Of a DNA stretch of 64,000 nucleotides, positions 2,267 to 54,100 are shown one piece after another (position 1 is the first letter of the stretch; each line of letters starts with the position of its first letter). The translations under genes were made by a program, and so were the position numbers. This DNA comes from a virus, in IMG/VR virus record IMGVR_UViG_3300020401_000002, positions 1 to 64,000 of that record; one strand, 5' to 3'. The notes beneath the pieces were generated by a model. That model ran no database searches. It worked only from the letters and a program-made list of their open reading frames with translations, and had not been told where the DNA came from.

Positions 2267-3886
2267 ATGCCTATAGAAAAATTCGTGGACTTCGGTGACG
2301 AAGCCAAACAATTCCTACGTCAAGGAATCAACACTTTAGCAAATGCAGTCAAGACGACACTAGGAGCTGCAGGTACAACAGTAATTATTGAAGATGAATT
2401 TGGTAAACCTCACGTTACAAAGGATGGTGTTACTGTTGCAAAATCGATAAATCTATCCCACCCAGTAGAACATATGGGTGCATCAATAATAAGAGATGCA
2501 TCTGTAAAGACTGGTGAAGTTGCAGGAGATGGTACAACTACTTCTGTAGTCCTGGCTCAGGATATAATCAAACACGCTACCGATAAGATGATGACAGAAA
2601 AACATCTAAATCCTGCGGTTTTGAGAGAACAGCTTACTGTATTAGGAGATGATATTATCAGCTATTTACAGGAGAATACATCTAAAGTAACTAAAAAACA
2701 GTTACAACATGTGGCTACTATTTCAGCTAACAACGATGAATTAGTTGGTAAAGTAGTTGCAGATGCTTTCAATAAAGTAGGAACGGATGGTGCGGTCAGT
2801 ATAGAAAACTCATCTAGCTATCAAACGTATGTTAAAATAGTAGATGGTACTAGAATTAAAAAAGGATATGTAAGTCCTTATCTTATTACAGATCGTGAAA
2901 AATCTACTTCAGTACTAGATAACCCTCTAATATTACTTGCCGACAAAGAAGTAAAGAAGTGGGCAGACATTCAGTTTTATCTAAAAGCATCAATAGAACA
3001 AAAGAAACCTTTATTTATAGTAGCCGATATAGATCAGAATGTAATGGCTAACATAAACAACAATAAGCTACGAGGTGCACTTGACATCTGTGTGGTGGCT
3101 CCTGAGGGAGTGGGCTCTAATCGCCTGGAGTTATTAGATGACTTAGCTGTGATGACAGGTGCTACCGTAGTTTCTGATGATACAGGTGTTGATTGGACTA
3201 ATGTAGGTGTAGGTAATTTAGGTACAGCAAAAAAAATAATTACCTCCGCAACACAATCAATACTTACTTTAGACACCTCAACAGAAAAAGAAATTAAGAA
3301 ACAAGTATCTGTAGTCAAAAAGATATTGTCCGCTAAAGAGGATGTACCAAACGAGTGGCATCACAAAGACAGATTATCTAGACTTGCAGGTGGAGTTGCT
3401 ACTATATTTGTAGGAGCTCATACTGAAGTAGAACTAAAAGAAAGAAAAGATCGTGTGGATGATGCGGTTTGTGCTACCAGAGCTGCACTAGAAGAAGGTA
3501 TACTTCCAGGAGGAGGTGCTGCATTATATCATGCAAGTATTATGTTATTTAAAAAATTCATGGAACCTTCGGCAGATGAAAGAGGAGCAGCAGCATTTAT
3601 ATTGTACAATTCTCTTACTTCTCCTATAGCAACCATTATGTCTAACTCTGGTAAACTAGGAACAGATATTGATAACACGTTAAGAGATCTGGCTGATAAA
3701 CCATTTGATCATGGTTACGATGTTTTAACAAAAGCACAAGTATCTATGTATGATCAAGGAATTATAGATCCAGCTAAAGTTACTATAACAGCATTTAAAA
3801 ATGCATTGTCTGTTTCGCAAATTGTATTACAGACAAATTGTATTGTAACTAACAAAAGAGATTTACCAAAAGAAAATGTAGAATGA
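2267..3886 (+). CDS. groEL: Group I chaperonin GroEL
   Basis: The product is a full-length 60-kDa chaperonin subunit (539 residues; usual length about 540-550). It would form the ring that folds proteins with ATP and GroES in the cytoplasm. The ATP-site signatures are intact: TKDGVTVAK near residues 51-59, AGDGTTT near 86-92, and the RVDDA...EEGILPGGG block near 395-415. The C terminus (KRDLPKENVE) lacks the GGM repeats of bacterial GroEL. It is directly followed by GroES with an ATGA overlap, so the phage carries a complete chaperonin pair. Phage-encoded GroEL is uncommon compared with phage GroES. A likely purpose is folding of the large phage structural proteins, but that is inference. Horizontal origin from a host is plausible. 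Confidence 0.97.
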   Translation: MPIEKFVDFGDEAKQFLRQGINTLANAVKTTLGAAGTTVIIEDEFGKPHVTKDGVTVAKSINLSHPVEHMGASIIRDASVKTGEVAGDGTTTSVVLAQDIIKHATDKMMTEKHLNPAVLREQLTVLGDDIISYLQENTSKVTKKQLQHVATISANNDELVGKVVADAFNKVGTDGAVSIENSSSYQTYVKIVDGTRIKKGYVSPYLITDREKSTSVLDNPLILLADKEVKKWADIQFYLKASIEQKKPLFIVADIDQNVMANINNNKLRGALDICVVAPEGVGSNRLELLDDLAVMTGATVVSDDTGVDWTNVGVGNLGTAKKIITSATQSILTLDTSTEKEIKKQVSVVKKILSAKEDVPNEWHHKDRLSRLAGGVATIFVGAHTEVELKERKDRVDDAVCATRAALEEGILPGGGAALYHASIMLFKKFMEPSADERGAAAFILYNSLTSPIATIMSNSGKLGTDIDNTLRDLADKPFDHGYDVLTKAQVSMYDQGIIDPAKVTITAFKNALSVSQIVLQTNCIVTNKRDLPKENVE

Positions 3887-11228: not shown

Positions 11229-14200
11229 ATGGCTAAAAAATTATTACATTCTTCAAAGCTACAGGTTGACAAGGCTAATAACCTTTTTGTCATAAATGAT
11301 GTCATACCTCTAGAAAACATTTTGTTGATTACAGACGTAACAGCAAATAAAGTTATTTATCAATTTAACAGTCCTACACTAGGTGGGACAGTTGTAACAG
11401 ATGGTCAGTCTTCATCGACAACACTTACGGTGACTCACGACATGGCTAATGATGCAGATATTCAAGAGACAGATTCTTTTCAATTTTTTTACGATTCAGC
11501 AGAAGTTCATATAGAGCCATCAGAAACTTTTGTAGATCCTGTAAGTAAATTTAGAGTATCTAATCCAGAGAACTTAATTGATACTGACTTTGAGTATGGT
11601 CTACAGTCTACAAAATGGGAAACTATTCAAACTGTAAACAATGTTCCAACATTGTATGCTTCAGGAGGTGAAGTACCTATTGAAGGTATAACTTCTGTTA
11701 GTTCACTAATTGGATCTAGACAAATTAGAGTCCAGGTAACTACACCTCACGGACTAACTGTAGGTGATCCTTTATCTGTTCAAGGTGTAAGCGATTATCA
11801 ATCAGAAGGATTTTTTATTGTTTCTGGTACACCATCAGCTTTAGAGTTCTTTTATGAAATAGACGTAGAGTCTAGTATATCAGGAGAGATATCAGGATCA
11901 TACACCACAATAATTCCAGCCAAATTTTTTGAGGGTGCACAACTAAATATTAGCAATGCAGAAGGAGTTACAACAGATGAAGCCGATCAGAGTGTGTTGA
12001 CAGCAACAACTCGTGCTGCTCACGGATTTACGTCAGGAACTAAATTATATATAAGAAACTCGATAGGTCCAAAAGAATTAAAAATTACTGATCCAACAGC
12101 AACCGCTTCAGATGGTAGACCTTTTGTAGATACAGTTGCTTCGTTTCAAATAGATAATCAAGTACAAGATACAAACACTACCAGGGGTAATGCAACATAT
12201 AATAACACAGTTGCTTGGGACTGGGAGATGACACACACTAAATATTTGTCATACACAGATATAGGTTCTTCTAATCAAATTACCTGGGCAGGTCATGGTT
12301 TGACAGACAGAGCTTGTGTTCTTTTTAATACTCCTGTTGCTTATGGAGGTATCAACAGAGATTACAACTCTAACAAAAGTCAATATTCATATAACTATTC
12401 ATTCAGTTATTTTTCAAATGCTGAACCAGACGAAACACAAAATTATAGTGGAACCCAAGTGGACACATTCAAAAACTTAGATAATTTTGGATTGTATGAT
12501 GGTGAAGTATATTATGTAAAAGTAATAGATGATAATACGTTAGAATTATATGAGTTCGGTGATGAATCACTAAGTACTGTAATTCCTTTAACACAGCCAT
12601 CATCAGAGTTTACATTAGGCTTACCTAGGCTAGGGTTAATATATGAAGTTGCTCGTGCAGGTTATAATAGTAATTATGGAAACTCAAATGATAACTGGAG
12701 ATGGACAAGATGGAATTATGAAGATGCAGGATTATTAACTAACTCATTTAATTCTGGTTATACTTATAGTTATGACAGATATAGTTACTGGGCTATGAGC
12801 ACATATTCTCCTGGATGGGTTGACTACAACGATGAAGTAACAGTTACAAATATTAGATTAGCAACTTCTGGTCTTTACTATTACTACTATTACACTAGAG
12901 TAGGAACGCCTGATAATGGACAATATACAGGTAATATAGGTCTATACGCATGGTGGTACTATGGAGGTAGAGAGTATTATGCTTGGTTGAACTCTGTAAA
13001 TAATCAGCCATCACATTTTTATAATGGTGCAGGGATTAGAACAAGACAATATAAAAACCACTATGGATGGATGTATCACAAAGGTGATATACAAAGAATG
13101 ACAAGCGGACAGGCAACACAAGATTGGTCTGGTAAAGATTTAGTAGCTAATGAATATGGTGCAGGAATTAGTGAACCTAATATGATTGTTGCATTCCAAG
13201 GAGCTACCAGAGGATATAGAAATGGATATTACATGTCTGTTGGTGCAAATGATTACTATTCAGATTCTTTGAGTGCTGAAGGTGCTTATAAAAACAGAAT
13301 TGGTGTTACAAGACAGATGAACGAAGATGTAACATTAGATTCAGCTAGTAACGATGGTATATTTGTAATAGCTAATAACTTTGGATTTAGTTATGGGTAT
13401 GAAAGATATGGTTTAAATCAACAGCCAGTTTTGTTCTATGGTTTTGCAAATAAATTAGAACAAACAAGAAATACTATATATATAGCAGGACATGAGATAC
13501 CAGATCAACAAACTGTAACAGTAAAAATACCAGATGCAGAGTATAATGAAAATCTTACTCTCCCTAATAACAATATTACAGGTCAAACATTTATATATGC
13601 AGATCAATATCAGATAACTGAGCAGACACAAAATTTTCAAGCGACTGTTATAAAAATAAGTGATAATGTAATCAAACTACAAACAGATGACTTTCCTAAT
13701 AATGATGACTTTATAGAGTTCCCTGATAATTATACAATATCTTATAATTTAGAAAATCCTTTTTATAACACTTTATTTATTCAAGATCATAAAATTATAG
13801 GTATTGAAGAAGGAACTTATACAGCAGAAGGTAACACAGAACCAAATCCTGGAATATGGAATGTTTCATTTGAACCAGGTAATTATATATTTTCAGGTTT
13901 AAGAATTAGCGGTACAGCTACAGATCCAGATATAGTAGTATATAGAGGATCAACCTACAACTTTGTTGTAAACGCTACAGGACATCCATTCTATTTAACA
14001 ACTACTGATGCAAGTGGATACGTTTCAGGAACTTATGCTGGTGAATATCTGTTAGGAGTTACAAACTCAAGAACTACATCAGGCACACTATCTTGGACTG
14101 TAGATGCAAGTGCTCCTAATACTATGTATTATTTCTGTGGAAATCATGGCAATATGAATGGCACTATAGAGGTCAGAGATGTAGGAGCTGCAATAGGTGG

Positions 14201-27459: not shown

Positions 27460-28323
27460 ATGTCATTAACTGATCAGCAATATTATCAAGACAGCAGTAA
27501 TTGGGGAGGTAATCAATTTATAAAACTCAATGACTTAATTAACAACTTCTATTTATTTTATGTAGGAGATGATAAGGTATTGCAATCTGTTAAAAGATAT
27601 GACGTTGTTTTCCATGCTAAAAGAGCACTACAAGAATTACATTATGATGCTTTAAAAGATGTAAAAGCATTAGAACTAGAATTGCCACCAGATCTACAAG
27701 TAGAGTTACCTAAAGATTTTGTAAAACTTGTACGATTATCATGGGTAGATGAAAGAGGTAGATTACATCAAGTAATGAAAGACGACACCTCAACCATAGC
27801 AAAAGCATATTTACAGGACAGTAGTTATGATATATTATTTAATAACGATGGTGAAGCAATAGAAGGTACTCCTTATCTAGAACAAAAAATGACAGAGTTA
27901 GCAGATGCTGCAGAGAACAAGAGCACTGCATCAAATCTCAGCGAGGGACAAAACGGTGGTAGATTTGGTATGGATACATCTAGAGCAAACGTAAATGGAA
28001 AATATAGATTAGATAAAAAATTAGGTGTAATTAGATTTAGCTCTGAAGTAAAAGGACAGTTTGTAGTAATAGAATATATAACAGATGGATTATCCTATTT
28101 ATCGGAAGATGAGCTTCAAGTAAACAAATTGGCAGAAGATTTTTTATACAAGCAAATAGCTCATCAAATTGTTAGCCACAGATTTGGCATTCAAGAGTAT
28201 ATAGTTCGCAGGTATAAAAATGAAGCATTTGCAGCTATGAAAAATATGAAGATTAGAATGATGGATATCCATCCTTTTGATTTGATACAATCTCTGAAAG
28301 GTCGAAATAAGTGGATTAAATAA
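27460..28323 (+). CDS. Tail/neck structural protein, 287 aa
   Basis: The sequence contains KLNDLINNFYLFYVGDDKVL, RYDVVFHAKRALQELHYDAL and LPKDFVKLVRLSWVDERGR, a combination I know from conserved neck or tail-ring proteins of crAss-like phages. The C-terminal helix (RYKNEAFAAMKNMKIRMMDI) precedes a basic end. The stop overlaps the next ATG (TAATG), linking it to the muzzle gene. The exact ring position cannot be told. Confidence 0.75.
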   Translation: MSLTDQQYYQDSSNWGGNQFIKLNDLINNFYLFYVGDDKVLQSVKRYDVVFHAKRALQELHYDALKDVKALELELPPDLQVELPKDFVKLVRLSWVDERGRLHQVMKDDTSTIAKAYLQDSSYDILFNNDGEAIEGTPYLEQKMTELADAAENKSTASNLSEGQNGGRFGMDTSRANVNGKYRLDKKLGVIRFSSEVKGQFVVIEYITDGLSYLSEDELQVNKLAEDFLYKQIAHQIVSHRFGIQEYIVRRYKNEAFAAMKNMKIRMMDIHPFDLIQSLKGRNKWIK

Positions 28324-31300
28324 TGGAATCAAAAAACGTATTTTCTTCTGGTAAAATGAATCGTGATGCCGATGAGAGGCTGATTCAACAAGGCGAATAT
28401 AGATATGCTCTAAACGCAAGAGTACTCAATTCGGCTACATCAGGTGTTGGTGCGTTAGAAAACGCATTATCTAACGAAGCAGTTACAACAAGCACAGACC
28501 TTGATTTCGGCACAAACCCTGTTTGTCTTGGTTCTGTTGCTGACGATTCACTAAATAAAATTTGGTGGTTTGTAAGATCTGATGAAGGATCTTATATAGC
28601 TGAGTATGATATTGACAATAATCTTGCATCTTTCGTGTTACATGATGAAAGAGCAGGAAATGCCAATGTTCTAAATTTTTCTAAATCTGACTACGTCCAG
28701 GCTGATGTTTTATATGATAATGACAATGACATTATCATGTTGTTTTTTACAGATGGTATAAACGAGCCTAGGAAAATAAATGTAGAAGAGGCAAAGCTTT
28801 TATCTCAAGGTTCATTTTTAGAATCAGATATAACTGTAATAAAAAAGCCACCTTTATTTCCACCGACACTAACACTATCCACGTCTGGCAATACACAAAC
28901 AAACAATTTAAAAGAAAAGTTTATCACTTTTGCATACAGGTATGAATATTCTGGTGGTGAGTATTCTGTTTTATCGCCTTTTTCTGAAGTAGCTTTTCAA
29001 CCGTTTGATTTTACGTTTGACTATTCTATTTCTTCTAACGAGTCGATGTTAAATAAACACAACTCTGCTGCAATAGAAATTGAAACTGGAGGAAGTGATG
29101 TTGTAAAAATAGATTTAGTATTTAAAATATATGGAGATGATACACTTTTCCTGATAGAAAGTTTTGACAAATCTAAGCTAGGTATAGGTAATGACACTAA
29201 CTATACTGTTGATTTTGACAACAATAAAATATACAAATTACTTGACAGCAGAGAACTAAAAAGGTATTACGACAATGTTCCATTAACTGCTAAAACACAA
29301 GCAATAGTAGATAACCGTATTATGTACGGAAACTACACAGAGAACTTTGATTTAAAAGATAGAAATGGAGATCAGATAAAAATAGATTTTACTACATCTG
29401 TTACATCTAAAGAATCAGGTACTCCAGGTCCAGCATACAGATCTGTAAAAACTAACAGAGATTACGAACTAGGTCTTGTTTATCTAGATGATTTTGGAAG
29501 GTCAACAACTGTACTTACATCTAACACAAATTCAGTATACGTTGATGCATCAAAATCTAAATCTGAAAATTCATTACAAGTACAGATAAATAGTTTGCCT
29601 CCTAAGTTTGCAACTAAGTATAGAATTTTTGTAAAACAAACAAAACAGAATTATTATAATATTCTTCCTACTATATTTAGAACAGATACTGACACAGGTT
29701 TTGTTTATGTACTGCTAAATGCAACGGATGTAAATAAAGTAAAAGAAGATGATTTTGTAATTGTAAAAGCAGATACTGGAGGACAAAAGACTACACTAGT
29801 AGAAACTAAAGTATTAGAAGTATCTTCTAAAGATCTAAACTTTTTAGAAGCTGAAGACTATCCAGGAACAAACGATCCGCCTATTGCACAACCTGCTGGT
29901 GTTTATATGAAGATAAAGCCAGTAGGCTTTAGAATGAATTTAGATGATTATGATGTTTATGAAAATAATGATTATGACACTAGTGCTAACGATAGGAATG
30001 ATCCTCTGGGATTTTATGGAGGGTTACCAGCAAAAACCACAGGACCATTCTATTACGGAACAACGTCATCTGCTGGTAATGATATTACTGTCGCTGGTAC
30101 TTATAGTGGTAGCGTTTACGCTAGACTTACTATACAAATAGATGGAACTGGAGATGGTATAAGCACCTTTGACACGTTTACATGGGCTATAGATTATTTA
30201 GATGATGGAACTACACCTGGTGTATCAGCCACAGGAGTAACTATAACTCCAGGAGTACCTATAACTTTAGCAGATGGTATAACAGTTGACTGGGCAGCAG
30301 CAACAGGTCACGATACTTCAGATGAATGGAACTCTACATTAAAACCTGCAAACCCTACATATGATAATGACTCTAAAGCATACTCTGTTTTTAAAGGAAT
30401 TGATGAGGTAGCAGACGAAGAGATTAGAGCAGGTACTATACTTAATTTTGAGTACGATGAATATAATGAAGCAACTCAATATTGGACTTATGAATTTGTG
30501 TCTAGTGGTAACTATCCTAATTTAGAGGAGTGGTATTTTAAGAGTGGTGCTAAACCAATATTTGATGCTGAATTTAGTGAAGCTAGAGTCTTTTTTGAAA
30601 GAGGTACTTATGGAAGCAGAACAACAAGCTTAGAACAATCAAGAGCTAATACAGATCCTATACATCTTATAATAAAATCATTTGGAACACAAAACAATGA
30701 TTTTGATTCTAGGGTTAAAGTAGATAATAGGTTTAGAATTACAAAAAGAGCATCTACTGATGAATTATGTTTTGAAACAAAACCTGTAGAAGACACAACT
30801 GAGTTATATTATGAGACACCACAAACTTATAGTATTGTAAATGGATACCATACAGGTACTGCTGCTTCAGCAGGTCAAATACCGCAGGTAACACAAACAT
30901 TAACACAAGGTAGTACCAACTTAACAGCAGTTAATAATGTAGGTTATGTAAACGTAACTGATCCTGTAGCTAGTGATGACTGGGACAACTTTGCTGCATT
31001 GTCTTCTGATCCTTTTAGTGGAGATGCTTACAAACTGCAATTCACTCTTGAGCCTGATGACTATACAGCATTTGCAAACTACACTAATGAACAAGGAGCT
31101 CCTGGCAACGGAAGTTTTGGTTTTGGTCAAGGTAAAACAATTACTATTACACAGGGTAGTGCTACTTTAACTGTTAAAGTATGGTACTTCCAAAGAAATG
31201 ATATAACAGGAGGCACAAGAGTTACTTTATTTGATGACGATCAAGGTCTAACATCTATGAGTTCTACGAACTATGTTAGTGGTTCTGGATCTTTTGCTAA

Positions 31301-32177
31301 TCTTGGAGGAGACTTTACAGTAGTATTTGGTGATGCAGTAGATATAGCTCAAAGCAGTACAAATCCAGCTACAATAGTTTTACCTTATTTTAACTGCTAT
31401 GCTTTTGGTAATACAGTTGAAAGTATAAGAATTCGTGATTTATTCAATGCACCTGTATATAAGTTAGATACAAAACCACTCACAAACTTACAGGAATATA
31501 AAAAATCTTTTAGAACTACTTCTATAACATGGAGTGGTATATATGAACAATCAACACAATTTAATGCATTAAACGACTTTAGTCTTGCTGATCTAAACTA
31601 CAAGGATTTAGATGATGAATATGGCAACGTAGGAAGGATAGTGCCAAGAGGATCAGACCTTATAGCATTTCAAGAAAACAGAGTTTCAAGAATCCTTGTA
31701 AACAAAAACATATTATTTAATGCTGATGGATCTGGTAACGTAGGAGCATCAACAGATATATTAGGAACTGTCGTACCATATGCAGGAGAGTTTGGTGTTA
31801 CACGACATCCATTCTCAGTTTCGTTGTGGGGTGGACGTATATACTTTGTAGATGAAAGAAGAGGAGCAGTATGTCGACTATCACAAGATGGCATAGAGCA
31901 AATATCAGATTTCGGAATGGTAGATTTCTTCAGAGACAACCTGAAAGGAGTAGATCCGTTCCGTGTATTAGGTGGCTTTGATCCACACGATAGGGAGTAT
32001 GTGGTGTCCCTCCAGGGAACTTACAGTGAATGGAGACCAGATACAATAACGTGTGAGCTCATATATGACGATGATGCACCACCGACTTCTACAACGTCAA
32101 CAACCTCGACATCGTCCACGACAACGTCAAGTACAACAGCACCTCCAACAACGTCATCAACGACCTTTTTTTTTTGA
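28323..32177 (+). CDS. Tail stabilisation / muzzle protein, 1284 aa in zero frame
   Basis: The N terminus FSSGKMNRDADERLIQQGEY followed by RYALNARV is the hallmark, as I recall it, of the P22 gp10-like stabilisation (muzzle) protein of crAss-like phages, a needle-side tail cap with beta-propeller structure. Later blocks (RIMYGNYTENFDL, YVDEDFG-like segments, GGRIYFVDERRG) fit. The conserved part ends near residue 1240, after which the protein turns into a Thr/Ser tail (PPTSTTSTTSTSSTTTSS) and stops at TGA directly behind a run of ten T. The next frame continues the same composition, so the frame very likely goes on by slippage. It is the fourth gene of the unit from 26751 counting the connector pair. 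Confidence 0.82.
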   Translation: MESKNVFSSGKMNRDADERLIQQGEYRYALNARVLNSATSGVGALENALSNEAVTTSTDLDFGTNPVCLGSVADDSLNKIWWFVRSDEGSYIAEYDIDNNLASFVLHDERAGNANVLNFSKSDYVQADVLYDNDNDIIMLFFTDGINEPRKINVEEAKLLSQGSFLESDITVIKKPPLFPPTLTLSTSGNTQTNNLKEKFITFAYRYEYSGGEYSVLSPFSEVAFQPFDFTFDYSISSNESMLNKHNSAAIEIETGGSDVVKIDLVFKIYGDDTLFLIESFDKSKLGIGNDTNYTVDFDNNKIYKLLDSRELKRYYDNVPLTAKTQAIVDNRIMYGNYTENFDLKDRNGDQIKIDFTTSVTSKESGTPGPAYRSVKTNRDYELGLVYLDDFGRSTTVLTSNTNSVYVDASKSKSENSLQVQINSLPPKFATKYRIFVKQTKQNYYNILPTIFRTDTDTGFVYVLLNATDVNKVKEDDFVIVKADTGGQKTTLVETKVLEVSSKDLNFLEAEDYPGTNDPPIAQPAGVYMKIKPVGFRMNLDDYDVYENNDYDTSANDRNDPLGFYGGLPAKTTGPFYYGTTSSAGNDITVAGTYSGSVYARLTIQIDGTGDGISTFDTFTWAIDYLDDGTTPGVSATGVTITPGVPITLADGITVDWAAATGHDTSDEWNSTLKPANPTYDNDSKAYSVFKGIDEVADEEIRAGTILNFEYDEYNEATQYWTYEFVSSGNYPNLEEWYFKSGAKPIFDAEFSEARVFFERGTYGSRTTSLEQSRANTDPIHLIIKSFGTQNNDFDSRVKVDNRFRITKRASTDELCFETKPVEDTTELYYETPQTYSIVNGYHTGTAASAGQIPQVTQTLTQGSTNLTAVNNVGYVNVTDPVASDDWDNFAALSSDPFSGDAYKLQFTLEPDDYTAFANYTNEQGAPGNGSFGFGQGKTITITQGSATLTVKVWYFQRNDITGGTRVTLFDDDQGLTSMSSTNYVSGSGSFANLGGDFTVVFGDAVDIAQSSTNPATIVLPYFNCYAFGNTVESIRIRDLFNAPVYKLDTKPLTNLQEYKKSFRTTSITWSGIYEQSTQFNALNDFSLADLNYKDLDDEYGNVGRIVPRGSDLIAFQENRVSRILVNKNILFNADGSGNVGASTDILGTVVPYAGEFGVTRHPFSVSLWGGRIYFVDERRGAVCRLSQDGIEQISDFGMVDFFRDNLKGVDPFRVLGGFDPHDREYVVSLQGTYSEWRPDTITCELIYDDDAPPTSTTSTTSTSSTTTSSTTAPPTTSSTTFFF
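32166..32175 (+). other. T10 run, probable slippage site joining two frames
   Basis: Ten T lie in ACGACC-T10-GATACC. In the zero frame this reads Thr-Thr-Phe-Phe-Phe-stop. With nine T it reads Phe-Phe-Phe-Asp-Thr-Thr and continues for 1435 more residues. Loss of one T makes 28323-36483 a single frame of exactly 2720 codons including the stop. Either the polymerase slips on the run, or the assembly has one T too many. Confidence 0.7.
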
Positions 32178-35100
32178 TACCACTACCTCCACTACTCTGG
32201 AGCCTCTCCCTACTACAACAGAGTCTCCTGAACCTACCACAACTACAGCATTTGTATGTAAGCCATTTTACATAGGAACTGATGCTGATGGTGACATATT
32301 CTTCTCTACTAATCCTGATCCGTGTGATAGGTATGATTACTTTGATGAAGCTTTCTGTCATAATGGAGCTGGTGATTTGCCAGATGTGTTTGACACAGTA
32401 TATAGAATAGTAAATGGTCAGTATACACCTTTTGTAGGTTTTAATTCATGGTTTAGCACTTCTAAAACAAACGCATTTAGAAGTCAAACACAGGCTACAC
32501 AAATAGGATTTGATGGAACAGTAATGAATAAATCAGCATGTAGTGCTAAAGAATTGCCTACTACATCAACATCATCTACTTCTAGTACGACTTCTAGTAC
32601 AACTTCATCTACCACAACATCTAGTACATCCTCTAGTACAACATCAACATCTAGTACCTCATCTACTACTAGCACTTCATCAACAACTACATCGTCAACT
32701 AGTAGCACAACGACAAGCACAAGCTCAACTAGTAGCACATCTAGTACAACATTATTGCCAACAAGCAGTACGTCAACATCAAGTACAAGTTCTAGCACAA
32801 GCTCTAGCACAAGTAGCTCAACAAGTAGTAGTACATCTAGTAGTACATCTAGTAGTACAAGTAGTTCTACAAGTAGTACATCTTCTACTTCATCTACATC
32901 ATCAACAACGAGTACATCGTCAACATCATCAACATCATCAACGTCATCTAGTACAATACCAACTTGTAATCCATTTGTTTTAGGAACTGGAACTGGAACA
33001 AGCGTACCTTATTGTAACTCTGATCCAGCAGTAGCTTGTGAAGCTGCTACAAGAATGTTAGCGGATATGTGTCATAACGGTGATACAACTATACCAGAGG
33101 TTGGAGATAGAGTAAGAAGAATAAATGGTATAGTATTGCAAGGTGGAAACTGTTGGTTCCATGCTGGTGCTTCTTCTAATGCTGATTTGTCAACTGAGTA
33201 TTATACACATATAATACAAATAGATAATAGTGGATACGTTGTAAGTGTTTATGATTGTAACCCACCTACAACAAGCACAACTAGCTCTTCTACTAGCTCA
33301 ACTACATCTAGCACAACGTCAACTAGTTCTTCTACTACAAGCACTTCTAGTACGACAACTTCATCTACAAGTTCTTCAACGACTAGTACAACAAGTACTT
33401 CTAGTACATCTAGCACTACAAGCTCTACTAGTTCTACTAGTTCTACAACAGAATCACCATTTACAACAACAAGTACTTCGAGCTCTACATCGACAAGTAC
33501 TTCAAGCTCTACAACCTCAACGTCATCTACAACATTACCACCATACACAGAAATATTTAGAGCTCCATATCATTGTAACACATCAACACATCCGACTTGC
33601 TCTACATCTTGTACAACACCAGTACAGTTTGACAATCAGACACTTTATTTTGATGGTGTGCTAACACCTTACCAGGGATATATATACACTGATCCACAAT
33701 TAACACAACCTTACTTTACAGGTGTATTTACATATCAAGGATTCTCATTTGATTCTAATGACAAAATGCAATGTAAAATTGCACCTATGGTAATCCGTAC
33801 ATCTCAATCTGGTGCTATTATGGATATATGTGCAGCATGTCCAACAACAAGCACGACAAGCACAAGTTCTAGTACAACATCGACATCAAGCACAACTAGC
33901 ACAAGTAGTTCCACTAGTAGCACAACTTCCAGTACGTCTAGTTCAACATCATCTAGCACGACAAGTACATCTAGCTCTACAACAAGTACATCATCTAGCA
34001 CAACTAGTACTTCATCGAGTACATCATCTAGTACGTCTAGTTCGACTACTTCTACGAGCTCAAGCACAACGAGTACATCATCTAGTACATCATCCAGTAC
34101 CTCTTCTAGTACCTCTAGTACATCAACGTCTAGTACAAGTTCTACAACAACATTTGGATGTCCTACTGGATCTTTCCCTGATGGTCCGTATAATTATCCA
34201 ATATATCTTCTTAGGCAGTTGAGTGGTGGTGGGTATGTTTATGCTAATGCATATGAGTCTACTCCATATCAACCAGGAGATATAGTCACATTAAATGCAG
34301 GAAGTACAAACTGTTACTACGTTTTATGTTATTATCCAACCTCAGCATTTACGACTAACCAGGCATCTAGCGTAGCTGGTCCATGTCCAACAACTACGAC
34401 TACACTACAACCTACGACTAGTACTTCGTCTAGTACCTCATCAAGTACATCGTCAAGTACTTCATCAAGTACATCGTCAAGTACTTCGTCTAGTACTTCG
34501 TCTAGCACATCTTCTAGTACTTCTTCTAGCACTACAAGCACGTCATCAAGTACATCAAGTACAACTAGTAGTACATCTTCTTCAACTTCTAGTTCTACAT
34601 CAAGTACAACATTAGAGCCAACGACTTCTACATCTAGTTCTACATCATCAAGTACATCTAGTTCAACGTCTAGTTCTACAAGTAGTTCTACATCTAGTTC
34701 TACAAGTAGTTCTACAACTAGTACGAGTAGTTCAACGTCTAGCACAAGTTCTACATCAAGTACTACAATAGAGCCGACTACGTCAACATCTAGTACAACT
34801 ATAAATCCTGGTTTATCTACAACGACAACTTCTAGTACATCAAGTACAACTAGTTCTACAAGTAGTACCTCAACATCGACAACCTCAACTTCAAGTACAT
34901 CAAGTACAAGTACATCGAGTACAACACTACTACCAACAAGTGTCTTTTATTTAGGATCTGATCAATACGCATATGCTTGGTTTGCTAAAGAAAACTATGA
35001 ATTTGCTCAGACCTTTGGTGGACCAACACATTGGTTCCATGATTTCTTATGTGATATAAATACATTTAAGCAAACAAAAAGACACAACGGTACAAATGCA

Positions 35101-36483
35101 CTACCGCAAGTTGGTGATATGATTTATAATCCTAACACTTCTATGTTTGATGGATCATTAGGTGGTCACCAGGGATCTACTTACAACTGGTATATAATGA
35201 CTGAAAACCCTCATGATGGTTCTACTACAGTTACTAATAAATACATGCTTAAAATTGATAATACTGGTGAAGTTCTAGATATTATTGATTGTTCTGTTGG
35301 TTCTACGACTACAACGTCTACTACTATTGCACCAGGAACACCAACAACAACAGTTAGTTTTGCAGCACAAAATTGTCCTGCTAGTTTTAGTTATGGAGCT
35401 TCAGGTGCACAAACATATCCTTCATTAACAAAAGTAAATTTAGGAACTGGAGTAGGATGGGTTGAGATAGATATATCAACATATCAATTACCTGATAAAA
35501 TAGTAATAAAGTATTTAGGTGATATTGTATATGATACTGGTTATTTAGGCGATAGTAGTTACCAGTCAGATTTAGATACTGAATTAGCAAACAGAGGTCT
35601 GCCAAGTGAAACAATTACACAAGGAACTGGTGCTAATATTAGATGGTTTAAACCTCAAAGTTACTCATTGTTAGATGTAGAAGTATATGCACCATTAGCA
35701 GGTACAGGATGGGATGTAGATGTTTCTTGTCCAACTGCTCCAACGACAATACCACCAACAACTACTAGTAGTACGTCTAGTACAACGCTAGTTCCAACGA
35801 CAACATTGTTCCCTACAACAACAACATCTACTATTGACACAGATGGAGATGGTATACCAGATCACATTGATCCAGATGATGACAACGATGGATGCTACGA
35901 TCACTTGGATAAATATCCAACAAATGCACAGTTTAATGCAGATGCATACTTCCAAGTATTTGCTGCAAGTGATAATTATTTAGACACAGGTAACGGTCTT
36001 GCTAGTGTAGACGTGTCAGTATTTAGTCAATCTCTTACACCAACAGAGTTAAGACAAAGCTATCATCATATAGTCAACTTAGGTAATGATATGCCTACAA
36101 ACTTACAGATATGGGATCTAGGTCAAACATACTTTGGAACTTATCAAACTATGGCATCTAGTCAATACGCTAATGATGGTTCAGATAACAGAGGATTCTA
36201 TTATTACAACAAGAGACCACAGTTTGATGTATGTAATCATAACTATTGTTCTCCTCCTCCAGGATCTAATGTGTGTATTATAAAAACATATGCTGATAAA
36301 GATTTTAGTGGAGGTCAGAATTCATTCCCAACATTTAATTTAACTCCATATTTTGCTATTATAAATTCAAGTGGTGGGCGTGTAGATGACTTATTTATAG
36401 TTAGATGGGAAGATGCAACAGTAGTGGCGTTATACACAGATGGAGTGGGATCTGCTAATCCAACATTACAAACATTAACATAA
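32176..36483 (+). CDS. Mucin-like Ser/Thr-rich multidomain virion protein (shifted-frame continuation)
   Basis: No ATG lies near the start of real coding. The frame is open back to an ATG at 32053, but those 41 codons are a Gln/Arg shadow of the Thr/Ser tail of the muzzle frame, so entry is probably by slippage at T10. The product alternates long Ser/Thr tracts with compact Cys-containing domains of 60-130 residues, for example CKPFYIGTDADGDIFF, IPTCNPFVLGTG, FGCPTGSFPDGPY and VFYLGSDQYAYAWFA. Three of these share CHNG/RHNG...VGD...IDNxG phrases, so they are diverged repeats. Near the end lies a calcium-loop segment DTDGDGIPDHIDPDDDNDG like thrombospondin type 3 repeats, then a final beta domain. 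It resembles a stalked adhesin with mucin-type linkers. Four glycosyltransferase genes follow in the next unit. Confidence 0.72.
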   Translation, partial: DTTTSTTLEPLPTTTESPEPTTTTAFVCKPFYIGTDADGDIFFSTNPDPCDRYDYFDEAFCHNGAGDLPDVFDTVYRIVNGQYTPFVGFNSWFSTSKTNAFRSQTQATQIGFDGTVMNKSACSAKELPTTSTSSTSSTTSSTTSSTTTSSTSSSTTSTSSTSSTTSTSSTTTSSTSSTTTSTSSTSSTSSTTLLPTSSTSTSSTSSSTSSSTSSSTSSSTSSSTSSSTSSSTSSTSSTSSTSSTTSTSSTSSTSSTSSSTIPTCNPFVLGTGTGTSVPYCNSDPAVACEAATRMLADMCHNGDTTIPEVGDRVRRINGIVLQGGNCWFHAGASSNADLSTEYYTHIIQIDNSGYVVSVYDCNPPTTSTTSSSTSSTTSSTTSTSSSTTSTSSTTTSSTSSSTTSTTSTSSTSSTTSSTSSTSSTTESPFTTTSTSSSTSTSTSSSTTSTSSTTLPPYTEIFRAPYHCNTSTHPTCSTSCTTPVQFDNQTLYFDGVLTPYQGYIYTDPQLTQPYFTGVFTYQGFSFDSNDKMQCKIAPMVIRTSQSGAIMDICAACPTTSTTSTSSSTTSTSSTTSTSSSTSSTTSSTSSSTSSSTTSTSSSTTSTSSSTTSTSSSTSSSTSSSTTSTSSSTTSTSSSTSSSTSSSTSSTSTSSTSSTTTFGCPTGSFPDGPYNYPIYLLRQLSGGGYVYANAYESTPYQPGDIVTLNAGSTNCYYVLCYYPTSAFTTNQASSVAGPCPTTTTTLQPTTSTSSSTSSSTSSSTSSSTSSSTSSSTSSSTSSSTSSSTTSTSSSTSSTTSSTSSSTSSSTSSTTLEPTTSTSSSTSSSTSSSTSSSTSSSTSSSTSSSTTSTSSSTSSTSSTSSTTIEPTTSTSSTTINPGLSTTTTSSTSSTTSSTSSTSTSTTSTSSTSSTSTSSTTLLPTSVFYLGSDQYAYAWFAKENYEFAQTFGGPTHWFHDFLCDINTFKQTKRHNGTNALPQVGDMIYNPNTSMFDGSLGGHQGSTYNWYIMTENPHDGSTTVTNKYMLKIDNTGEVLDIIDCSVGSTTTTSTTIAPGTPTTTVSFAAQNCPASFSYGASGAQTYPSLTKVNLGTGVGWVEIDISTYQLPDKIVIKYLGDIVYDTGYLGDSSYQSDLDTELANRGLPSETITQGTGANIRWFKPQSYSLLDVEVYAPLAGTGWDVDVSCPTAPTTIPPTTTSSTSSTTLVPTTTLFPTTTTSTIDTDGDGIPDHIDPDDDNDGCYDHLDKYPTNAQFNADAYFQVFAASDNYLDTGNGLASVDVSVFSQSLTPTELRQSYHHIVNLGNDMPTNLQIWDLGQTYFGTYQTMASSQYANDGSDNRGFYYYNKRPQFDVCNHNYCSPPPGSNVCIIKTYADKDFSGGQNSFPTFNLTPYFAIINSSGGRVDDLFIVRWEDATVVALYTDGVGSANPTLQTLT
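32560..32955 (+). repeat. Ser/Thr tract 1
   Basis: About 130 residues are almost only Ser and Thr, in units such as SST, STSS and TTSST. They are encoded by mixed TCN, AGY and ACN codons, not by one repeated DNA word, which points to selection on the amino acids. Confidence 0.9.
33265..33540 (+). repeat. Ser/Thr tract 2
   Basis: About 90 residues of Ser and Thr, broken once by ESPF. It separates the second and third compact domains of the virion protein. Confidence 0.88.
33838..34155 (+). repeat. Ser/Thr tract 3
   Basis: About 105 residues of Ser and Thr between the third and fourth compact domains, with TSSS spacing more regular than in the first two tracts. Confidence 0.88.
34385..34935 (+). 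repeat. Ser/Thr tract 4, the longest
   Basis: About 180 residues of Ser and Thr, broken by short TTLEPTTS or TTIEPTTS phrases. The TSSS unit (ACN-TCN-TCN-AGY and similar) is repeated many times here, with local DNA-level repeats such as AGTACATCGTCAAGTACTTC, so length changes by recombination are likely. Confidence 0.88.
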
Positions 36484-40819: not shown

Positions 40820-40831
40820 TTCGTATATTTG
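40820..40831 (+). promoter_or_regulatory. Promoter element TTCGTATATTTG of the glycosyltransferase unit
   Basis: The extended motif TTnGTAnnTTTG is complete and lies three bases before the ATG at 40835. The preceding gene stops at 40819, so promoter and start are packed into 15 bases. Confidence 0.58.
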
Positions 40832-40834
40832 CAT

Positions 40835-41797
40835 ATGGCTAAATATAGATCTGGATACGCAAACGTAGAGACTTTAAGAAAGTATGTTAATGGAAAACCG
40901 ACTAACATTACAAAAGAGAATGTTCCAAGTGATCCTGACTACAGACCTAAATACCTATCAGACCAATGTGATGTAAATACTGATATCCCAAACGGTGTTT
41001 ACAGTCTTCCTATAGAAGCAGATCCATATGTTACTGATGCATATGTTAGTCCTGAAAAATCAGACAAACAAGAAAGCACTCTAAGTTTTAATGAAATGAA
41101 TAAAGGATGGACATCTTTTCATTCATACATTCCAGAGTTTTTGGAAAATATAAACAGTGACTTTTACTCATTTAAAAATGGTCAACTATATAAACATCAT
41201 GCAAATGAGGACAATAGAAATACTTTTTATGGTCAGGCATATAACACAGAATTAGGTTTTGTTTCTAATCCTGCACCATCTGAAAACAAAATATTTAAGA
41301 CAATAGAAATAGAAGGTGACAGTGGAGATTGGGATGTTACTGTCATGACTAATTTAGATAGTGGTCACGTTAACAAGGAATCTTTCAAAAAGAAAGAAGG
41401 ATTTTATTATGCATACATAAGAAGAGACAACGATGACATTACTAATACCCAACTGTTATCAGTTCAGGGTATAGGCAACTTAATACTACTCGACAATCTA
41501 ACTTATCAATTTAATTTTGTGCCTAGTACTATTGCAATAGGCGATAGTTTATATCGTGCTCAAGGAGGATCATATCAATTAATAGGTGTGGTATCTGGTA
41601 GAACAGCACAGACACTAACCGTAGGAGGTTCCACAGTCGTACCTAACCCAGGAGACTTTTTCTTCGGAGCCAAATCACCAATAGCAGAAAGTTATGGATT
41701 GAAGGGGTATTTTGCTAACATTAAGCTAGTAAGTAACAGCACCTCACCAGTAGAAATCTTTGCAGTAAACTCAGAGATTTCAAAAAGCTTTCCATAA
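40835..41797 (+). CDS. Muzzle C-terminal-like tail protein, 320 aa
   Basis: I use the ATG at 40835. The frame begins six bases earlier with a TTG inside the promoter. The central part STLSFNEMNKGWTSFHSYIP, then FYSFKNGQLYKHH and RNTFYG, then PSENKIFKTIEIEG, is what I remember as the C-terminal module of stabilisation/muzzle proteins of crAss-like and other marine podoviruses. The gene at 28323 has the N-terminal module but not this one. The two may be halves of one ancestral protein. The last 100 residues are beta-rich with Gly-rich turns. Its TAA overlaps the next ATG. Confidence 0.68.
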   Translation: MAKYRSGYANVETLRKYVNGKPTNITKENVPSDPDYRPKYLSDQCDVNTDIPNGVYSLPIEADPYVTDAYVSPEKSDKQESTLSFNEMNKGWTSFHSYIPEFLENINSDFYSFKNGQLYKHHANEDNRNTFYGQAYNTELGFVSNPAPSENKIFKTIEIEGDSGDWDVTVMTNLDSGHVNKESFKKKEGFYYAYIRRDNDDITNTQLLSVQGIGNLILLDNLTYQFNFVPSTIAIGDSLYRAQGGSYQLIGVVSGRTAQTLTVGGSTVVPNPGDFFFGAKSPIAESYGLKGYFANIKLVSNSTSPVEIFAVNSEISKSFP

Positions 41798-48104: not shown

Positions 48105-51100
48105 ATGGAAGAAGAAGAAGTTATTGATGGTGCTGTACAAGGACCAGATACTGAGCAAAAAGCTCAACAAAGGTCTGAGTCTCAAGAAGCACTAGATAGA
48201 GATGCTGAGATAAAAGAAAGACAAGCTCAGTTAGACAGGGTAAAGGCAGGATCAAGGACGTTCCAGGCTTTACAAACTTCTTATGCCATGTTCCAGGAAG
48301 AAGGATACAATGGTGGCTTCGAAGAGTATTTTGAATTACTATGTAAAAACCCTGATGCATTACAAACTGCATTCACTATGTTCCAGGAAGAAGGATATAA
48401 TGGTGATTTCGATGGTTTTAAAAAGTTAGTTGGAGTTGAGGAGGTTCAAAAAAAAAATCCTGGCGACACCTCAGATTCAGATTCTTCAGTTACATCTGTA
48501 GATTCTCCTACAGATCCAAACATTCAAAGTAAGATAAGTGACGACAATCAAAAGTCACTAAACGCAGGTACATTTACTTCATTCAAAGAGCTGTGGGAAA
48601 ACATGCCTACTGCTGAGGAATATTATTCAGATTCTGTAAGACCAGAAATCACACAGTTAGAACCCATGCCTGATAAAAAAGATAAATCTTTTATTCAGAG
48701 TGTAGTAAACAGATTAAACCTACCAGGTTTTGGTAAAGAAACTGAGTCTTTTGTTACTTTAAAAGACAGAGGTATTTCAAAAGATGAGATGGAAAGGCGA
48801 GAAAAAAGGAAAGCAGACTTTGAAGCTTATCAAAAGGGAGAAAAAGAATTAGACTTCATGACTAACCTGTCTAATAACCTTACACAACAAATGGGTTATT
48901 TAGCTGGTACAGATGACAGACATAAGTTTGCATATGCTGTAATGTATCAAGATTTAGATGCACTACAAGCTTCTGCATTAGAGTTAGATAGAATAGAAAA
49001 TTACGCAAAGCCAGTATACACTCCTGAAGATTTTTTTAAAGACGATGAAAAAAGCATTGGTAAGTTTGGTCAAGCTGTAACAACTGGCTTATCAGGATTT
49101 TTAGGAAGTGCTGTTATAGGAGGATTGTCATTTGGGTATGGGTTATATACTGATTTTGCAGCATCACAAATATATAATTACAACAGGAGAGAGGCAGAAG
49201 CTAAAGGTATAAGTTTAGAAGAGCAAATCACTAATGGTGATACAGACATATTAGTTCCTGCAACTATAGGTATTCTTCAGGGAGTATTAGAAAAGTTTCA
49301 GTTAAATCGTATTTCAAGAGGCATCAATGCAGTTGGGAACAAGGCTATGAAAAGAGTAATTAACTTTTTTGCTGGTGTTGGTAAGAACGGTGCTGAAGAA
49401 TTTGGACAAGAATCTTTAGAGATTGTATCAGAACATATAGCTGATGCTGATGCAAAAGATGACTTCAGCGATGTTGAGTTAGATGACATGGGCAAAAGCA
49501 TAGCTAAAGAAATGTTTAGCTGGAGAACAGCAAATGCCTTTTTACTTGGTGCGTTTGGTTCTGGAGCTGCAACAATAAGTGGTTCGGCTGCTAAGTCAGC
49601 ATTTACTATGCTTAAAACTAAAGAGCAAGAAGATCAAGATGAAAAAAATGTAGAAAAATTAGCTGACATAGAAAGAATCAGGTCTACAAAAAAACTTAAT
49701 AAAGATGAGAAGGCAGCATTAAAAATAGCAGAAGAAAGAGTAAAGGCAGAGTTAAAAAGAAATCAGGAGCTCGTGTCTGATAAAGTTATGCAGATGACTG
49801 ATGCTGAATTAGAACAGACACAACGACTGTATCACAAAGACAAAGACTTAAACTCTAGGATTGAGGGTGTACAGAACTCAAAAACATTTAGTGAGGAAGA
49901 AAAGAAAACCTACATAGATGAACTGTTAGTAGAAAAAAAGAAGATAGCAGATGAAATAACGCAAATAGAAGATGCTATCAAAACAAGAGAACCTCAAAAT
50001 GCACAGGTCGTAGCTGCTCCTTACTTTGATTTAGAAGTAAACAATGCAACTGAAGCATCTAGAGTTAGATCATCAAAAAATTATCAAGAAAATATAGCTA
50101 GACTTACAAGTTTAGCAACCGACATGGGTATCAGAGTCGAGGTTGTAGATAAAACTATAGGCGGATACGAGCATGAAGGTAGGGGTGCAGTTCAGGAAGT
50201 TTCTACAGTATTCAATGTAATGAGTACAGACATGGATAAAATTGCAGACTTCGCTGCTATAGCTGCAACACAAACTGCTGCTGTCCAGGATGCTACTATT
50301 GCTGCTAGATATACGGAAGAAGGTGCTGAAGGACACAACGCAGATGAATGGACTATTAAAGTTGACGATGTAGATGCTACATTAGAAGCTTTAAAAGAAG
50401 TTGGTATCACTGAATTTACACTAAACGAGGATCAAGGAACAGTATCCTTCCTCGATTTACATAAGTTCCCAGATGCAGAATTAGATAGTAAAACAGATAA
50501 ATTAATAGATGTACTAAATAGTAAAGGAGTAAGTTATGAAGGCAAAACAAAAACCGCAGTCGAGAGCAGATATATTGACCGCAAGGAAAGAAAACAAATT
50601 CTACAAGCTATTCGACAACGTCTCGCCCAACAAGGACAAACTGGGACAGGGCTTTATCGTCAGGTCGAAGATGCGTTAACTAAAAACGAAATATTCTTAG
50701 AGAAAAGATTTCCTGAAGAAAGTAATATTAGATCTACAGCAGATAAAAAGAAATATAAGTTTGCACAAACTGATGATCCAAAAACATTAGCAGAGCTTAA
50801 AGATCGTACTTTAGATCCTCGTAAAAGAGATTTGATAGAACAAGCAGAAAAAGCAGCTAAAGCTTTTGAAACTGTAGCACCTGATGCTGTCATCAGATTA
50901 CATGAAACAAAACAATCTTATGCTGCTTCAGTAGGAGGTAGAGCAGGTAGAACTAGTATGGGTGCATACAATAGAAAAACTAATATAATACATATTAGTC
51001 TTAAAGATGCAGATCCTAGTACGGTAGGTCATGAGGTTTTCCACTTACTATTAAGACGTAAGTTTTCTGATGACAAACAAATACAAGCTGCCACTAAAGA

Positions 51101-54100
51101 ATTATTTGATACTTTAAAAGAACAAGTAGGTGGTAAAACTAAAGAAGCAATAGAGCAACTCGTCTCTAATTATAAGGAAAACCAGAAAGACGAAGAAAGA
51201 ATTGTAGAGTTGTTTGGTCTTATGTCTTCAAATCAAACAGACATTCCTAAAACATCAGTACAAGCAATTAAGTTATGGGTAAATAAAGTAGCTAAATTAT
51301 TAGGTATAGGTAAACTATTTACAGGTAGAGATGTAGGTAGAGCTGAACAAATAGATATATTTAAAAGACTTGCTACTAAAGTTGCTACAGCAGAACAGCT
51401 TACTGATGTGGATATACATTCTATATCAGAAGCTCAGGATCAAACAGAAGTAAACTCAGAGGATATTGTTAGACCTAAAATAATAGACGATGACGATACT
51501 ATAGCAAAAAGAACTGTAGGTCCATTTGACATACAATATTTTAATGAGACAGAAAGGTTCCAAAAACTTATAGATGAAGGTAGATTGATCACTCATGTAG
51601 ATTCTTCTTTTATTCCAGAGGGTGCACAAGTTGTAGTCCACTCGCCTGATAACATGTTTGTAGGTGATATATATCACAGAGGTGAAAAGATTATTAATGG
51701 TGAGGGTGGTTTATTTTATACACTTAACACAGATAATGTATGGGCATCAACAGAACAAAATTTAACTTCTTTAGTAAACACAATCAACAAAGCTGTAAAG
51801 GCATCACCTGATGGAAAAGCATTCATGATGCTAGTTGGAGGTAGTAATAGTAAAATGTTAGGGAATATAACTGCATCATCTGCAGCACTACAGGTCCTTA
51901 ACAAGATGCCAGAAAAAAATATATTCGCCAGAGGTGATCTAAGAAAGATATTGGCAGACGTTGGTAAGGAACGTGGTATAGATATTCCTCCAAAGTTTAG
52001 TGTTGAAAGAATGATTCAGCATATTGATAAAACATTCTTAGCTACAGAGAAACCTTCTTTTGATGAACGTAGAAGTTTTATACAGGATATAGTTAAGAGA
52101 ATTGGTGAGTTAGAAGGAGTCAAAAACGACAAGGTCGCTAATCAAAAGTTCAGAGAGTTCTTTGGTATGAGTGATATGTCAAAATTATCGAAGACAGGAT
52201 TTACAAATAACCTTGCTAATCTTTTAACTGAACCTTTACTCCAGGGATTACCTAGTGGTCACGCTTATGCTGCCATAGAAATAAATGGTCCTGTTGAGGG
52301 ATTTGTAGAAAGATCACACAGAGCTTATGCAGGAGCTGTTAAGCAAAAAGAAGGTGTTCCAACACTACACTTGTTTGATAAAAGACAAAATATAGATGAG
52401 TTAGTTGATACTGTGGATGGTTTATCTAAGGATGCAGAAACTAAACCAGGAGAATTTAGAGGAAAGATAGGTTTAGCTCAAGCAGGTTTAGGAATAGGCG
52501 TAATAAAACAAAGCATTGATGAAGCTGTTAGTGCTAAGATGACACCAGAAGAAGGTAAACGAGCTGATAGATCTGATAAAGGATGGAAGGAAGTTACTGA
52601 AGAGGGGAAAAGATTGTTGTCTCCTCCTAAAAGAAGTTTAAAACAGCGTTTTAAAGAAGGTATAAATAATTTCATGACGAACTGGATGGATAGACAGTTT
52701 GATGTAAAAAAGAAATTATTAAAAACAAAAGATGCTACAGCTAAAGAAGTATATAATCGTCTTATAACTGCTGCTGGTGCTAGTGCTAGTGCTAAAAATG
52801 TGTTCAGACAATTCGATAAGTTGATATATGGTAAGCTTAGTGAAAAGAATAAAGAAGCATTAGACCGTATTATAGCAGAGAGAAGACTTATAGCTATAGA
52901 AGAAAACATAAGTAAAAGGAAAAAGAATTTAAAGAATGCAAAAAATTTAACAGAAGGGTATAAAAGAGGAAGACAAGGACTTACTGCTGACGATGCTAGA
53001 GCTGCATTAAAAAGAATGAGAGAGCAATTAGGTGAAGATACATACAACGATCTAAATAATAGAGCTGATGTATACTTCCAAGCAATGTCTGATCAGCTTA
53101 AAAGATTATATGAAGGAGGTAGGATAACTGAGAAGATGTATTTAAATCTTCGTGACATTGAGTATTCACCTATACGAACTATCAAGTTCATGTTGCAAGA
53201 AAACCAAGACTTGTATAGCCAAGACAGTATAGATGCACAAGCAGAAAAGTATGGAATGACTGCAGAAGATATAAAAGCTTTGACTGAAGCAAATGAGGAT
53301 GCATATGTTCAGGACAGTAGATGGCTTTTAAGAACTCAGATTGCAGTAACAGAAAAAAAATTCTTCCAAAACAGTTTATTGAATCAGGTAGGTAAACTTG
53401 TTGACGAAGGAAAAGCAGAAGGTTTAGGAATTACAAGATTAGTTCCAGGTATGCCAGGAAATCCTGTAAGCAACAAAGCATTCTTATCTAAAAAAGGTTT
53501 AGCTGAAGTTAAATACAAAGTAGATGGAGAAGATGCTACTTTATATATGCCTGTAGATATGGCTCGACAGATATTAGATATAGATCCTGAGCCTAATGTG
53601 ACAGCTAGATACAGGAAAGCTGGTAAATTTACTGGATCAAATCTACTTAGATTCCAGGCAACTGGAGGTAACCTTACATTCTTTGTAAGAAACGTGCCAA
53701 TGGATTATTTAAACGTGTTATTCTTTACAGATGCGTATGGTAAATTTAAATTATTGTCTGGTGCTCAACTTGCTATCGATGGTATAGTAAATGCAACTAA
53801 GGCTACCTTAAGAACAAAAGGATTTAAAGAAAATTACAATGAGTTTTTAAAGTATGGAGGTGGTCTAGACTTTCTAGGTGTAGATGGTATTGCTAAAATA
53901 GAGGAAGCAAAAATTGTAAGAGGTTTAAAAACTGCACAGCAAAAAGCAGGTTATTATTTTGTCAAAGGATTGTCTCACTTCAATGAAATAGCCGAGCTTA
54001 CATTTAGGTTATCTGTATACAACAAAACAAAAAACGACCTTATAAGTGAATATAAGAAAGCTAATGATGGAGGTACACCACAAGGTGATGCACTTAACTC

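Follow-up and report, generated by a model that had tools for sequence, protein, structure and literature searches.

How does a phage express a reading frame of more than a thousand codons that follows a structural gene in the wrong frame, directly after a homopolymer? The DNA analyzed here, called the window, is taken from a virus record of 68,777 bases and comprises 64 kb of it. At positions 32166-32175 a run of ten T residues (T10) closes the first open reading frame, ORF1, as TTT TTT TTT TGA, and the next frame, ORF2, is open without a stop for 1435 residues (32176-36483). As an earlier note on this DNA had stated, the loss of one T gives a single frame of 2720 codons, corresponding to 1284 plus 1435 residues and the stop codon. 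The same note had proposed that slippage on the run fuses a tail muzzle protein to its extension. Our analysis supports a conserved frame transition, with slippage as the likeliest cause and two product lengths to be expected; the sequence is compatible with either the polymerase or the ribosome as the slipping machine. We consider it highly likely that some programmed frame transition is in use at the run, and likely that the run, where the muzzle core gene ends, serves programmed transcriptional slippage. The features are listed in Table 1.

Table 1. Features of the muzzle locus in the window
Feature	Position	Strand	Evidence
ORF1, putative muzzle (tail-tip) core protein, 1284 aa, short form	28323..32177	+	PF25731 and phrog_14478 matches; 74% identical in L001
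Ser/Thr linker ending ORF1, after the conserved core	32072..32165	+	Translation; variable between relatives
34-bp stretch identical in window and L001	32154..32187	+	Exact match
T10 run, proposed slippage site; TTT TTT TTT T, then GAT ACC ACT ACC	32166..32175	+	T10/T11 with same frame offset in six contigs; pattern confined to the clade in IMG/VR
Zero-frame UGA stop, last T of the run plus GA	32175..32177	+	Sequence; same in all six contigs
ORF2, 1435-residue stalk without own start; C-terminal part of the putative long form	32176..36483	+	Frame open; conserved; module m1 dN/dS < 0.5
Module m1, first after the run	32248..32550	+	Conserved in all six contigs
Module m6, also in frame inside single-ORF muzzles of relatives	35368..35733	+	Profile matches in L006 (phi19:3), L019, L025, L076
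Module m7, DTDGDG calcium-repeat-like start and C-terminal domain	35836..36480	+	Profile match to sister-clade stalk repeats, L012

The identification of the first part as a tail muzzle protein was borne out, as ORF1 matches the crassvirus muzzle family PF25731 (E 1.4e-15, 57 bits versus a family cutoff of 27) and phrog_14478 (E 2.6e-241). Its C-terminus reads PPTTSSTTFFF, and the entire core common to other muzzles is contained in this short form. The ORF directly before it (27460-28323) matches phrog_13977, a virion structural protein, and the same structural gene order in phi38:1 and Gundel places the muzzle in the late structural cluster, after genes of a putative tail-barrel ring type. 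The nearest annotated phages are Cellulophaga phage phi38:1 and its kin (Pervagoviridae), Maribacter phage Panino, Tenacibaculum phage Gundel, and Baltivirus (Pachyviridae), with ~35-38% identity. The muzzle is the hexameric tail tip, which is thought to touch the cell surface and to gate ejection (PMC10172136). A separate 322-aa gene at window positions 40829-41797 corresponds by homology to the C-terminal 240 residues of the muzzle of phi38:1 (33% identity, E 6e-33); the last muzzle domain is a gene of its own in the clade described below and in its sister clade. The muzzle of phage Panino (L004, 7001-10914) is annotated as two coding sequences; no long homopolymer marks the frame break near 9840, which reflects either a sequencing error or another frame change.

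Five further IMG/VR contigs of the same clade were found, giving six contigs in four lineages: the window, L001, the pair L095/L096 (99.7% identical over 10.6 kb), and the pair L097/L098 (~86-91%), with ~77% identity between the pairs. All six are IMG/VR virus records, and cultured relatives point to Bacteroidota hosts. L001, the first relative, has the same T10 inside the identical 34-bp stretch, which ranks second among the longest exact matches between window and L001 in an 8-kb region. L095 to L098, retrieved when the final part of the muzzle core (alignment A3) was used as query, carry T11, since the codon before the run is GAT rather than ACC, and the frame logic is unchanged. All six contigs thus have TTT TTT TTT TGA followed by the extension in the +1 frame; depending on the preceding codon the run is T10 or T11, and never of a length that alters the frame. 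The pattern T10-GAY-ACN-ACN-AC occurred in 5 of 2.9 million viral contigs in IMG/VR, all five belonging to this clade; the record of the window itself was not counted. Exact patterns, blastn in phages, GTDB genomes, plasmids, and a search based on module m1 retrieved no close relative or only L001. Because T9 matches in the sequence numbered 5 versus 4.99 expected, a T-run of such length is by itself unsurprising; its conservation is surprising.

The six contigs group as one clade (support 100/100) in a maximum-likelihood tree built from the muzzle core. Adjoining it are 17 contigs (L099 to L115) whose muzzle runs in one frame into DTDGDG-type repeats at the homologous position, and no run of 8 or more was found near their muzzle/stalk junction. 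In most other muzzle genes examined the core continues in frame for ~30 to 1480 residues, and wherever we looked at a frame-offset gene past a muzzle, an ATG was present at the junction or within 26 nt. As the muzzle cores of relatives mostly run on in frame, this comparison of genes indicates that in-frame extension is the rule and that the frame break is peculiar to the six-contig clade.

The extension encoded by ORF2 has a Ser/Thr content of 47%, but it is not uniformly mucin-like, since seven modules of 79 to 215 aa are set between Ser/Thr linkers. In comparisons where both values could be estimated, dN/dS of module m1 was 0.08 to 0.48 in the ORF2 frame, which demonstrates purifying selection on ORF2 from its first module on. 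The structure model of m1 was poor (mean pLDDT 56). Module m6 is found in frame in the single-ORF muzzles of L019, L025, L076, and phi19:3, and such modules therefore belong on muzzles. Further matches of the m6 region, at 36-40% identity, are hypothetical proteins of Xanthomonas phage XacN1 and Stenotrophomonas phages CM1 and RAS14, a module with a distribution far beyond the present group. Direct blastp of ORF2 with low-complexity filtering against the L011 and L012 stalks gave nothing, and the match of m7 was obtained by profile search. Separate ORFs of up to ~970 aa with their own ATG lie directly past the muzzle stop in L030 (5496-8405), L033 (12059-13711), and L052 (11969-14851) and carry repeats weakly similar to modules m1 or m5, so that such modules occur fused, frame-shifted, and separate.

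A sugar coat on the stalk, as the earlier note had imagined it, found no support. The O-glycosylation motif of Bacteroidota, D-S/T-(A/I/L/V/M/T), belongs to a system acting on non-cytoplasmic proteins (PMC12871550) and occurs only 3 times in the 1435 residues of ORF2. Host O-glycosylation of the Ser/Thr linkers is thus not supported by the motif content.

The surroundings of the run appear to be constrained. In a linker where many other positions change, FFF and the D after it never vary. Up to 12 codons from the junction, window and L001 agree at 20 of 22 synonymous codons, versus 53% elsewhere (P 2e-4), and for S/T/P codons the figures are 13 of 14 versus 43% (P 1.5e-4); this test rests on two sequences and is indicative only. 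An overlapping third frame was considered as the source of this constraint and rejected: it spans 32 codons in window and L001 but closes after ~11 in L095, as read by eye from the alignment. Reassignment of TGA was rejected, as the zero frame closes again soon past the TGA in window and L001. A terminator was rejected in the absence of a terminator-like hairpin before the run. A stretch of 115 nt in the window has an RNA structure z-score of -2.8; a 3' RNA structure as stimulator was rejected, nothing consistent being found in the relatives. No AGGGGG-like (Shine-Dalgarno-like, SD-like) stretch occurs in the 30 nt before the run, which are not conserved among the six contigs.

Two other loci of the window are mentioned for completeness. 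The only other run of ten, A10 at 48448-48457, lies inside a 2437-aa ORF (48105-55418) and is kept at the matching place in L001 (VQKKNP/VEKKNP) despite strongly differing flanking protein; being in frame, it may reflect merely a Lys-Lys-Asn motif, and slippage there, if any, would truncate the 2437-aa protein. A full-length Cpn60/TCP-1 chaperonin is encoded at 2267-3886 (PF00118, E 2.3e-60).

We propose the following mechanism. Faithful T10 or T11 transcripts would present UGA directly past the run and yield the complete 1284-residue muzzle core, whereas loss of one U by RNA polymerase (or addition of two) would yield a single 2719-residue protein in which small modules strung on Ser/Thr linkers would make up a long C-terminal stalk. 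Most muzzles would be short, a minority would bear the ~1400-residue stalk, and long subunits would be in the minority within the hexameric tail tip. As all four lineages keep the run and its frame break, the clade very probably uses slippage during gene expression, by polymerase or ribosome, to give a share of its tail-tip proteins a huge stalk. The features characteristic of transcriptional slippage are present, namely, a frame junction at a homopolymer of some nine or more A/T residues and conservation of site and frame offset across lineages; the relatives with muzzle and extension in one frame also count in its favor. RNA polymerase of Escherichia coli slips on T-runs of at least 7, with ~10% deletion at T8 (PMC6260861), a behavior that may not carry over to Bacteroidota, and the late genes of crass-like phages are likely transcribed by the host polymerase (PMC10136315). 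Against transcriptional slippage it can be held that a +1 ribosomal shift at UUU UGA is plausible in its own right and that a stalk on every subunit in the sister clade means that the architecture does not generally require a mixture.

The main rival is accordingly a programmed +1 ribosomal frameshift of the prfB type, in which tRNA-Phe would move one base forward at UUU UGA during slow reading of the UGA, the stop codon in Table 1 doubling as the A-site stop. Such a shift would give the same fusion protein. The sequence UUU UGA conforms to the shifty-stop principle, and all six contigs preserve it along with the D codon that forms the UGA; of the elements of prfB-type sites, UUU or CUU plus UGA with a +1 sense frame is present throughout, but the SD-like element a few bases upstream is missing, and UGAU stands in place of the UGAC preferred in prfB. 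Four T's would suffice for a ribosomal shift, yet ten or eleven are kept, and prfB frameshifting was reported to be inefficient in Flavobacterium johnsoniae (PMC12421855). Transcriptional slippage is favored because at least ten T's are retained where a ribosomal shift needs four, and because a conserved 3' structure and an SD-like element were not found. We infer that it is the polymerase rather than the ribosome that slips, and a ribosomal shift in its place appears unlikely; the two processes may also both act at one site (PMC5009743).

DNA phase variation, by which replication slippage would leave some genomes with the short form only and others with the long form only, is decidedly improbable. 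Homopolymers are mutation-prone, and phase variation typically targets surface-exposed proteins (PMC3711429), but run-length differences altering the frame were not seen: all six contigs are in one phase, and the chance of four lineages agreeing on it is 0.06 if two phases are equally likely. In addition, the nearly identical L095 and L096 have equal run lengths, and T11 is accompanied by the frame-neutral codon difference.

It is extremely unlikely that ORF2 has its own start and encodes a separate protein, or that it is reached by reinitiation after the UGA. Several relatives do have a frame-offset gene with its own ATG directly past the muzzle stop, but in L001 the ORF2 frame holds no ATG, GTG, or TTG from the upstream TAG at 13821 to 14154, i.e., 295 nt past the stop, though m1 occupies that stretch, and in L095 to L098 the first such codon lies 97 to 256 nt past the stop, with none earlier. 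In window or L001 only CTG or ATA codons are left as possible ORF2 starts. The earlier note had likewise seen no start near the second part, and we found no conserved one in the window, L001, or L095 to L098; an independent start was therefore rejected. Its remark on an ATG at 32053 opening a shadow frame needs correction, as this codon is GTG; ATGs of the shadow frame do exist at 32065, 32071, and 32074, but all these codons are absent from L001, where a TAG in that stretch shows that the ATGs are not conserved. As no usual start codon gives access to m1 in L001, m1 is reached only through the run, and we conclude from the reading frames and the conservation of m1 that ORF2 is very probably translated, and through the run.

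A sequencing or assembly error, with a true gene one T shorter and a plain single ORF (the clean T9 that the earlier note had feared), is very unlikely even for an error-prone homopolymer, since the same error is not credible when the off-frame run recurs in four lineages, in six contigs from different IMG/VR datasets that include T11 with its matching codon difference.

Several known systems resemble the proposed transcriptional slippage in the muzzle gene. In tssM1 of the type VI secretion system of Citrobacter rodentium, a structural protein is made in two lengths, short and long, through slippage on an A11 run before an early stop; the system depends on both lengths and on their ratio (PMC4256274). 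This case differs in that it is a bacterial gene with an A-run and was shown experimentally; moreover, the tssM1 run lies 28 nt before the stop and bases are added, whereas the muzzle site would lose one U right at the stop. Shigella mxiE (T9) and IS elements also open a second frame by slippage on A/T-runs of about nine (PMC6260861, PMC1088944), but they encode a regulator or transposase rather than a virion protein, and mxiE mostly adds bases. A poly-A frame break for which slippage was suggested is described for the methyltransferase gene of Campylobacter phage CPt10; it concerns one genome and an enzyme gene (PMC2853527). The G/GT tail chaperone of lambda and its relatives (PMC5009743) shares with the muzzle the tailed-phage context and a C-terminally extended minority product of a programmed frame change; it differs by a ribosomal -1 shift, a non-virion assembly chaperone, and a short extension, compared with 1435 residues on a tail-tip protein. 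In the prfB +1 frameshift, as in the muzzle, NNU precedes UGA, the sense frame resumes at +1, and Asp comes next, but prfB needs an SD-like element and CTTT, and the muzzle site has neither (PMC12421855). The sister-clade muzzles share the core and a very long extension at the same position, an in-frame DTDGDG stalk; with one frame and no T-run they have the stalk on every subunit. Our search of open-access papers found none describing this arrangement of slippage in a muzzle gene.

The chances appear about even that slippage by the polymerase determines in what proportion the two forms of a virion structural protein are mixed, with about one 1400-residue stalk per hexameric tip on average. 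If 10-30% of the subunits were long and mixing were random, 0.6 to 1.8 long subunits per hexamer would be expected, and 47-88% of virions would have at least one; the ratio and the entry of both forms into virions are part of the proposal. Among virions of a single genotype, some would then have long-reach tips and others not. Mixing the two forms in a tip could keep it from becoming crowded, or hedge between contact at short and at long range, although crowding is no absolute bar, since every subunit in the sister clade bears a stalk. In tailed phages the classic case of programmed frameshifting is ribosomal, and its product is an assembly chaperone. If our reading is true, programmed transcriptional slippage would serve virion architecture in a tailed DNA phage and be kept clade-wide. 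Since gene callers split the muzzle/stalk protein, the stalk is missed as a part of the muzzle in this clade. Conserved transcriptional slippage in a tail-tip protein would mean that the ratio of short to long host-facing subunits is set at the RNA level, and it would provide cheap adsorption hedging from one genotype.
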